Source of the DNA: Pedobacter soli
GTDB lineage: Bacteria; Bacteroidota; Bacteroidia; Sphingobacteriales; Sphingobacteriaceae
DNA: 64,000 nt
Direction: 5' to 3'
NCBI RefSeq assembly: GCF_900101435.1
Contig: NZ_FMZH01000017.1
Span: 1-64,000, forward strand
This document shows positions 40,132 to 41,527 of the stretch, piece by piece. How positions within the stretch are numbered: position 1 is the first letter of the stretch; every line of letters starts with the position of its first letter. Below the pieces are notes generated by a model. The model ran no database searches and was not told the origin of the DNA. It saw only the letters and a program-made list of their open reading frames with translations. Position numbers and translations under genes: made by a program.

Positions 40132-40710
40132 CTATGCATCCCCTTTTAAAAAAGTCATCATCTTTTCTAACGCAATGGCTCGGTGACTAATCTTATTCTT
40201 TTCGGCCATATCCATTTCAGCGAAAGTAATATCGTAACCATCAGGCTGAAATATAGGATCGTAACCAAAACCTTTAGAACCGGATAGCTCAGTTGTGATT
40301 GTCCCTTTAATTACACCTTCAAAAATATGGTTCTTGCCATCCTGCATTAACGAAATAACGGTTTTAAACCTGGCTTTTCTATTTCCTATTCCCTCAAGTT
40401 TCTTTAAAACAAGTTGTATGTTTTCTAAACTATCACGACTCCCCGAGTACCTTGCAGAATATACACCGGGTTCGTTGTTAAGCGCCTCTACTTCCAAACC
40501 ACTGTCATCGGCAAAGCAATCCAGATTAAAATGTTCAACCACATACCTGCTTTTTAAAGTAGCATTGCCTTCAAAAGTATCGGCAGTTTCAGGAATATCA
40601 GTTAAACAGCCAATATCTTCGAGGTTTAGCACGTCGTATTTGCCTGCCAGGGCCAAACGGATTTCTTCAGTTTTATGTTGGTTATTGGTTGCAAAAACAA
40701 GTTTTTTCAT
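40132..40710 (-). CDS. rdgB: RdgB/HAM1 non-canonical purine NTP pyrophosphatase
   Basis: 192 residues, normal length. It hydrolyses dITP, ITP and XTP to monophosphates so that deaminated purines are kept out of DNA and RNA. The N-terminal [14 protein letters not shown] binds the triphosphate, and [26 protein letters not shown] gives the metal-binding Asp pair and the base pocket. [12 protein letters not shown] and ISHRAIAL complete the family pattern. Transcribed in the same direction as the HolD-like gene just upstream, with a repeat-rich spacer of about 160 bases. Confidence 0.96.
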
Positions 40711-40732
40711 TTTAAAAGAGGTAAAAGGTTTA

Positions 40733-40873
40733 GGTTAAAAGGTTTAGGGTGTAAGGTGTTGTAAAGTTGAAAGGTTTAAGGTTTAAGGTTTAAGGTTATG
40801 ATTAAACTATTTAAAATACCATACCTTAATACTTTATGCTCAATACTTGATACTAAATACCTGATACTAAACC
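40733..40873. repeat. GGTTTAAGGT and ATACTTGATACT short repeats
   Basis: The words AAGGTTTAGG, AAGGTTTAAGG and GGTTTAAGGTTTAAGGTT occur in tandem, then AATACTTGATACTAAATACCTGATACTAAA. Similar words lie at 17690-17752 and 21652-21735. Non-coding, between rdgB and the HolD-like gene. Confidence 0.6.
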
Positions 40874-41527
40874 CTATTTAATTTTCTGCAGATTGCCCCA
40901 AAGCAATTTCTTTGCAGTTAAATCGCTGTCTAAATGGTGCAGGTTAGGCGCAAAAATAATGCGGGTGGTGCCGTGGGTAATGATCTCGTTCTGCCAAACC
41001 AGGTCTAATTTTAGATGTGCAATTTCTACCCCGAACGAGAGCATGGTAACCGGTTTAAAAAACTGATACAGTTCAGCAAAATCAGTGCCTTGATACCTCG
41101 AGTAATTCAGGATGGCAAAATCAGGTGTTCCGAGGTCTACCGCTTTAACAATTTTGCGCAACAATTCGCGACCTTGTTCAGTACTCACATCATTGCTTTC
41201 ATCGTTAACCAGAATGAGTACCGATTTTTTATTTCCACCTAAAAACTTAAAGGTTTTTTCGGGTGCTGGCTCGGCCACAACGTGCGTAATTTCAGGCGAC
41301 TGAGGATAAACTTTAGGTATTTCGGGTGCTTTAATACCTGGAATTTGTGTTACTTCGGTCTTCACAACCGATTCTTTTTGCGGTTCGGCAGCTACCTGAG
41401 CGGCTACAAAAACGGGCTCAGCATTACGTAACGGCTGAATTTCTACACTTTCATCTTTTACCAGAAAAACCTCGTCGGTAAAAAATAAACGTAAAGCATT
41501 CGCATTGTTGGTAAGCTGGTTTTCCAT
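40874..41527 (-). CDS. Putative DNA polymerase III psi subunit (HolD-like)
   Basis: 217 residues, no signal peptide. Residues 1-30 (ALRLFFTDEVFLVKDE) and residues about 125-217 have the layout of HolD: a strand KKSVLILVND like the HolD RLVMVAND, a helix LLRKIVKAVDL followed by PDFAILN, and a C-terminal IIFAPNLHHL-x4-TAKKLLW. The last matches P-x-L-x2-L-x4-T-A-x3-L-W of E. coli HolD residue by residue. Between these lies a Pro/Glu/Val-rich linker of about 80 residues. Psi joins the clamp loader to chi and single-strand binding protein. Homology judged by eye, so the name is provisional. No chi gene is nearby. Confidence 0.5.
   Translation of the reverse strand: MENQLTNNANALRLFFTDEVFLVKDESVEIQPLRNAEPVFVAAQVAAEPQKESVVKTEVTQIPGIKAPEIPKVYPQSPEITHVVAEPAPEKTFKFLGGNKKSVLILVNDESNDVSTEQGRELLRKIVKAVDLGTPDFAILNYSRYQGTDFAELYQFFKPVTMLSFGVEIAHLKLDLVWQNEIITHGTTRIIFAPNLHHLDSDLTAKKLLWGNLQKIK

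Follow-up and report, generated by a model that had tools for sequence, protein, structure and literature searches.

A psi-like protein with a predicted uracil-DNA glycosylase-type core in Pedobacter soli and other Bacteroidota

The gene, its occurrence and its parts

The window analysed here is the whole stretch of 64,000 nucleotides that opens contig NZ_FMZH01000017.1 of the Pedobacter soli assembly GCF_900101435.1. On its minus strand there is an open reading frame (ORF) for a previously unannotated Bacteroidota protein, which we call psi-like for reasons given below, and the gene downstream of it is one that we take to be rdgB (Table 1). Matches to this ORF, one apiece and free of internal stops, were present in 56 of the 61 Sphingobacteriaceae genomes searched, and for this reason we regard it as a real conserved gene. 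The 30 best-scoring homologues from these 61 genomes composed our first alignment (A1), and a second one (A2, 42 rows) joined the A1 relatives with sequences from further families in the phylum. Three A2 rows (G108, G172 and G201) came in via loci fetched by the Pfam profile of psi, PF03603. A1, built without these three, recovers G108 and G172 unaided and finds G201 only at E 5.9e-6, within a small set of ORFs.

A scan of 395 genomes of the phylum with A2 gave matches at E<=0.05 in 55 genomes, of which 42 were counted as real (best E <= 7.2e-8). The 13 others were set aside as weak, having E values of 9e-4 or worse and lying mostly in much longer frames. Among these genomes, those of group f4 and of most remaining families in the phylum gave no strong A2 match, and the gene may be missing from them or too diverged. 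Phage records likewise gave no match to the psi-like protein.

Three parts are common to the 30 A1 proteins: a conserved N-terminal segment, a variable linker and a core some 130 residues long. The earlier note on this DNA had described a linker of 80 residues; a linker is real, comprising about 65 low-confidence residues in the window protein, and its length in relatives is highly variable, the shortest members being 129 aa long and almost linker-free (L033). The conserved N-terminal segment upstream of the linker was absent from that description. Across the A1 cores, G97, N99, D136, N141, F165, G166, K206 and W210 are invariant or nearly so, and in the 42 rows of A2, invariance is left only at K206 and W210. 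Within the LILVNDE stretch, N108 is kept in 26 of the 42 homologues, and D or E stands at 109 in 24. As for the conserved N141, which aligns with an Asn of the family-4 uracil-DNA glycosylases (UDG4), it is perhaps a structural relic.

Table 1. Features of the psi-like locus, in positions of the window
Feature	Position	Strand	Basis or remark
Downstream neighbour, presumably rdgB (XTP/dITP diphosphatase, HAM1 family)	40132..40710	(-), same strand	matched in 55/73 family loci
ORF of the psi-like protein, 217 aa + stop	40874..41527	(-)	no internal stops in matches
Conserved N-terminal segment, residues 1-22, candidate DnaX-binding peptide	41462..41527	(-)	consensus NPxALxxLxTEDxY; predicted helix 9-17
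Low-confidence linker, residues 23-87	41267..41461	(-)	mean pLDDT 50-74 per ten-residue block over residues 31-90; alignment
Core domain, residues 88-217, predicted UDG-superfamily fold common with psi	40877..41266	(-)	model; hhalign to gamma psi
First core strand and turn LILVNDE, residues 103-109	41201..41221	(-)	approximate position of family-4 UDG GEAPG, itself lost
N141, aligned to Asn of UDG4 motif NILKCRPP	41105..41107	(-)	hhalign alignment; N in 35/42 rows
C-terminal pattern PNLHHLDSDLTAKKLLW, residues 194-210	40898..40948	(-)	K206 and W210 invariant

The C-terminal pattern deserves a separate comment. The earlier note had reported PxLx2Lx4TAx3LW with the spacing seen in HolD, the psi subunit of DNA polymerase III, and PNLHHLDSDLTAKKLLW indeed fits this pattern. 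Among some 2.0 million six-frame residues, duplicate loci included, it occurred in no other proteins than the psi-like one (in the window and at two duplicate loci) and enterobacterial HolD, the latter at eight loci (L071 of E. coli, L089-L093, L127 and L136). As a trait of the family, it holds in part: K206 and W210 are present in 42/42 homologues and the L/M positions are general (L196 is L in 28/42), while P194 (5/42) and A205 (6/42) are rare, and T is outside the six commonest letters at position 204. By hhalign, PNLHHLDSDLTAKKLLW aligns both to PALTDLRANPTARAALW of psi and to the UDG4 motif HPAYLLRSPxEKRKAW, the His being lost. Since family-4 UDGs have the K...W helix too (EKRKAWQDL), it marks the superfamily and not psi alone.

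Kinship with psi and the predicted fold

In Pfam, the window protein matched PF03603 alone (E 0.074; 13.7 bits vs a cut-off of 22.2). When homologues were scanned singly, this profile matched 12 of the 30 A1 and 17 of the 42 A2 sequences, other families reaching one match each at most. From NCBIfam, there was a single sub-threshold match (E 0.16), which makes no sense and was discarded. A six-frame PF03603 scan of 148 Bacteroidota genomes gave matches at E<=1 in 41 of them, mostly weak, scattered and elsewhere in the genome; seven fell on psi-like loci (G000, G035, G096, G108, G123, G172 and G201). The ortholog in G172, with 22.9 bits, was the sole match above the curated cut-off in these 148 genomes, and in the window's own genome (G000), the psi-like locus was the only one at E<=1.

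How such scores are to be read can be judged from the Gammaproteobacteria (185 genomes; the class of a Klebsiella genome), which were also the source of PF03603 matches for our gamma psi profile. There, psi turned out to be badly under-detected: PF03603 passed its cut-off in just 10/185 genomes, vs 156/185 of the same genomes for PF04364, the profile of chi. It follows that most psi are missed, that the low scores in Bacteroidota say little and that the cut-off is no fair defining line for psi.

Against a narrow enterobacterial set of 24 close psi sequences, hhalign gave weak results (Prob 17.1 and 8.9), too weak to decide, so that a diverse gamma psi set was needed. With 12 gamma psi (A4; seven divergent and five enterobacterial), A2 aligned at Prob 96.7 and E 3.9e-10 and A1 at E 7.6e-9, and the profile-profile comparison that the earlier note had proposed thus bears out the homology of the core to psi. 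Profiles restricted to the core reached a score of 63.7 against psi and of 46.9 against the rimI-linked UDG4 described below, the best of 60 column shuffles being 13.7 and 20.8, respectively; psi and UDG4 profiles scored 69.3 to each other. In global alignment, the A1 cores reached Prob 94.6 to psi vs 28.9 to UDG4. Chance resemblance to psi can be ruled out, as the core scores far above the column shuffles and PF03603 finds the same gene in seven genomes. A tree of cores grouped the Bacteroidota family with six of the eight psi rows (95/92), under long-branch warnings and with psi in three places; because its long branches come together and it does not keep psi in one group, we do not rely on this tree. 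A profile search of solved structures (PDB) by sequence returned nothing useful for the psi-like protein. Overall, we have hardly any doubt that it is kin to psi by descent and fold.

An AlphaFold2 model of the window protein made with A1 had a mean pLDDT of 78.5 (82-94 from residue 91 on) and displayed a helix at residues 9-17 and an alpha/beta core. Foldseek matched this model to the Thermus UDG 1ui1 (E 2.5e-5) and to psi 1em8_D (E 2.7e-3, probability 1.00). By VIA-align, the better fold match was UDG4 4zbx (Z 12.0, rmsd 2.9, 130 aligned), with psi 1em8_B (Z 8.8, rmsd 3.2, 101 aligned of 110) and psi 3sxu_B (Z 8.8, rmsd 3.4, 95 aligned) behind it. A 129-aa relative, modelled separately with 29 rows (A6; pLDDT 85.5, below 50 for residues 1-15), matched 4zbx (Z 9.8, rmsd 3.0, 111 aligned) and psi 3sxu_B (Z 8.9, rmsd 3.1, 95 aligned), which are tied by the VIA-align rule; Foldseek gave nothing at E<=0.001 for it, the best UDG being at E 1.6e-3 and psi at E 1.3e-2. 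The psi (UDG-like) fold, the lack of which the earlier note had named as grounds for abandoning its proposal, is present in the predicted model by both programs. The UDG-like fold of psi may already be in print. Residues 35-204 of PDB 9qhs_A, the family-A DNA polymerase of phage phiLo, also match the window model (Z 9.8, rmsd 3.3, 125 aligned); maybe this stretch is a further case of a UDG-like fold joined to a replication protein.

Could the protein be an active uracil-DNA glycosylase? The superfamily fold of the model speaks for it, as does N141, which is aligned to the Asn of NILKCRPP and kept in most rows. Family-4 UDGs have four cysteines for a 4Fe-4S cluster. The window protein contains no cysteine, and in the alignments of the psi-like family, the UDG4 motifs GEAPG and HPS/HPA are replaced. 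Moreover, a PF03167 protein is encoded elsewhere in each of the 23 Bacteroidota genomes tried, among them 18 that carry the psi-like family (the window's genome has one, at another locus), so that the psi-like gene is not needed as a UDG. We give an active glycosylase next to no credence. With the family-4 UDGs (1UI1, 4ZBX and the rimI-linked L249-L278), the psi-like protein shares the fold, the aligned motif positions and N141; it differs from them in the loss of GEAPG, HPA and the cysteines and in its shorter stretches between motifs. Judged by these motifs, the core apparently is a catalytically dead relative of UDG4.

A family-4 UDG that decayed separately from psi has to be weighed more seriously. 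Such a protein would have no tie to the clamp loader, and its N-terminal helix would tether it to some other protein; it could, for example, be a non-catalytic uracil/DNA sensor or work with RdgB to clean the nucleotide pool. Its case includes the top fold match of the window model, which is UDG4, a significant hhalign alignment to the rimI-linked UDG4 (E 4.1e-6), the core-only score to UDG4, well over its shuffled maximum, and a weak Pfam UDG match in 1 of the 42 rows (E 0.057). However, the same profile scores put the core closer to psi than to UDG4, and the tree, for all its long-branch warnings, places it with psi. Additionally, the locus in the window's genome is found at E<=1 by PF03603 and not by PF03167, and the anatomy of the protein is that of psi. 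Partners and neighbours, considered in the next section, also bear on this explanation, which we judge rather unlikely on balance.

Partners of psi and a proposed role without chi

The earlier note had also suggested that the gene might co-occur with a chi-like gene across Bacteroidota, and this was not borne out: chi (PF04364) passed the cut-off in 0/148 Bacteroidota genomes, and the window's genome had no match at E<=1. Weak matches in 30 of the 148 genomes were dropped, all of them being below the cut-off. They are frequent in group f21, and one (L061) falls in what we take to be a DEAD-box-like helicase, perhaps a case of distant fold likeness to chi. In the Gammaproteobacteria, as counted above, and in a Caulobacter control, chi over the cut-off was easily found. 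This makes it very improbable that the protein is a true psi whose chi is too divergent to detect, the classical chi-psi complex being present, as does the helicase location of the one weak match inspected. Under-detection of psi even in gammas makes a hidden partner thinkable, and the invariance of the C-terminal K...W helix could be read in the same way.

The conserved N-terminal segment, a predicted helix, sits at the position of the DnaX peptide of psi. Against the peptide profile of gamma psi, whose DnaX-binding consensus is YLxAMGIxxWxxR, it scored 7.4, which was equalled by 34 of 200 column shuffles and is not significant. DnaX domain III was found in 12/12 genomes tried; in the window's genome (G000), it lies around C20:61843-62220, within a DnaX reading frame of 615 aa. 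From the earlier designation of the protein as a HolD homologue, kinship stands, whereas identity as the same subunit does not as yet, chi having not been found and the match of the N-terminal peptide being not significant. Because psi's defining partner was looked for and not found, the protein is labelled psi-like, not HolD.

The gene neighbourhood differs from that of holD as well. Next to the psi-like gene, rdgB was found at 55 of 73 loci, or at 44 of 56 once repeat loci had been removed by hand, and no match to RimI at E<=1e-3 was seen at the 73 family loci, in flanks that extended at most about 1.5 kb; in E. coli, holD adjoins rimI. We know of no clamp-loader link of rdgB. In many relatives, the psi-like gene and rdgB nearly touch. 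In the window, a cluster of AAGGTTT-type direct repeats lies between them at 40719-40817, with three exact copies of AAGGTTTAAGGTT and none elsewhere in the window, even with one mismatch allowed. The frequent adjacency to rdgB, the failure to find chi and an N-terminal peptide that cannot be aligned to gamma psi beyond chance all favour a separately decayed UDG; against it, several members in other families keep the psi-like gene with other neighbours and no rdgB nearby.

Comparison with psi itself (HolD, PF03603; 1EM8/3SXU and the P. aeruginosa protein) brings out what is shared: a UDG-like core without catalytic motifs, a C-terminal K/R...W helix and a short conserved N-terminal segment. 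The passages on P. aeruginosa psi in PMC3197488 describe an N-terminal motif, a long flexible N-terminal part and a core, an anatomy which the psi-like protein resembles, and report that P. aeruginosa psi itself binds ssDNA. Unlike psi, the Bacteroidota family has rdgB and not rimI as a neighbour, no chi found in the genome and an N-terminal peptide of other sequence, and the window protein is below the Pfam cut-off.

Among the readings considered, we lean towards a psi-like protein that acts as an accessory to the DNA polymerase III clamp loader in Bacteroidota, a role which we regard as probable by a modest degree. The protein would be composed of a dead domain descended from family-4 UDG, a flexible linker and a short conserved N-terminal helix. 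The relevant passages on the E. coli loader report that the psi N-terminus binds domain III of three DnaX subunits and that chi, held by psi, binds SSB (PMC3290774), and that psi binding increases the DNA affinity of the loader (PMC3331839). By analogy, the N-terminal helix of the psi-like protein would dock on the collar of the DnaX trimer (domain III), as the N-terminus of psi does in structure 3GLI, and the core on its linker could reach lagging-strand ssDNA, SSB or another partner, so that clamp-loader stability and DNA affinity would be raised without chi. The K...W helix may be the counterpart of the HolC-binding surface. On the side of HolC, W57 and F64 are required for HolD binding, and YoaA binds HolC through R619/T620 of its C-terminal helix, according to the parts of PMC11981726 that deal with these contacts.

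Tailed family-4 UDGs of Gammaproteobacteria and the origin of psi

Three gamma matches to PF03603 (L246-L248) covered the N-terminal peptide only (profile ~2-26), the remaining frame being a whole family-4 UDG. A profile built from these three (A5) matched in 152 of the 185 Gammaproteobacteria genomes, and among the matches listed, at least 95/185 had one that spans the psi peptide and the UDG, that is, starts at model position <=13 and ends at >=200. At the 30 best-scoring A5 loci (L249-L278), the tail was recognized by a YLxAMGIxxW-type regular expression in 28 and as a variant in the other two, and HP[AN]YLL and a GEAPG-type motif were each present in 30/30 and CxxC in 29/30, in the part checked. 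The gene rimI adjoins 24 of these 30 best-scoring UDG4 loci and seven of eight psi loci (L238-L245). Chi was present in 89 of the 95 gammas with a spanning match listed vs 67 of the remaining 90 genomes (Fisher p 4e-4, with relatedness uncorrected).

On such evidence, which is of sequences and gene order, holD looks like a decayed form of the rimI-linked UDG4. Chi-bearing genomes with no detectable psi are noted in the passages on psi in PMC3197488, and in chi-bearing species 'without psi', the tailed UDG4 is a candidate psi. The UDG4 tail would bind DnaX, as it resembles the E. coli psi peptide. Taking these observations together, it is tempting to suppose that psi is a decayed UDG4, that about half of the gammas keep an apparently active, DnaX-tethered UDG4 and that Bacteroidota have a chi-less psi. 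The position of psi in gammas would then be held by UDG4, usually beside rimI, giving a replisome with a built-in uracil remover, and the branch that the Bacteroidota family represents would have given up catalysis, either through the same loss or through a parallel one. We put this joint scenario forward tentatively, at somewhat short of an even chance.

Two side observations belong here. In two Bacteroidota genomes outside the psi-like family, UDG4-type genes (L210, 1153-1971; L209, 1450-2100) lie beside a gene that is presumably dnaB-like. The protein of L210 combines GGAPG with a long extension at its N-terminus, and it may be another replication-linked, non-catalytic UDG4. Furthermore, a record titled Chryseobacterium sp. 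18061 (L126) contains a holD that is 74% identical to that of E. coli; this assembly is probably contaminated or mislabelled.

The restriction of psi to gammaproteobacteria, as stated by the earlier note, agrees with the relevant passages of a 2012 review, in which it was left open whether psi is absent elsewhere or merely undetectable (PMC3290774). Our literature search of titles and abstract starts, with subscription journals mostly outside its range, returned no link of psi/HolD to family-4 UDG or to Bacteroidota, and in the paper passages on psi and its relatives, neither a psi-UDG4 link nor psi in Bacteroidota is mentioned. Our results suggest that psi-type proteins exist outside Proteobacteria and without chi, which means that psi may have a function in its own right. 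The comparison with family-4 UDGs further suggests an origin for psi and the identity of the missing psi in many chi-bearing bacteria. Finally, a UDG4 with a DnaX-binding tail, if true, would tie the removal of uracil to the replication fork.
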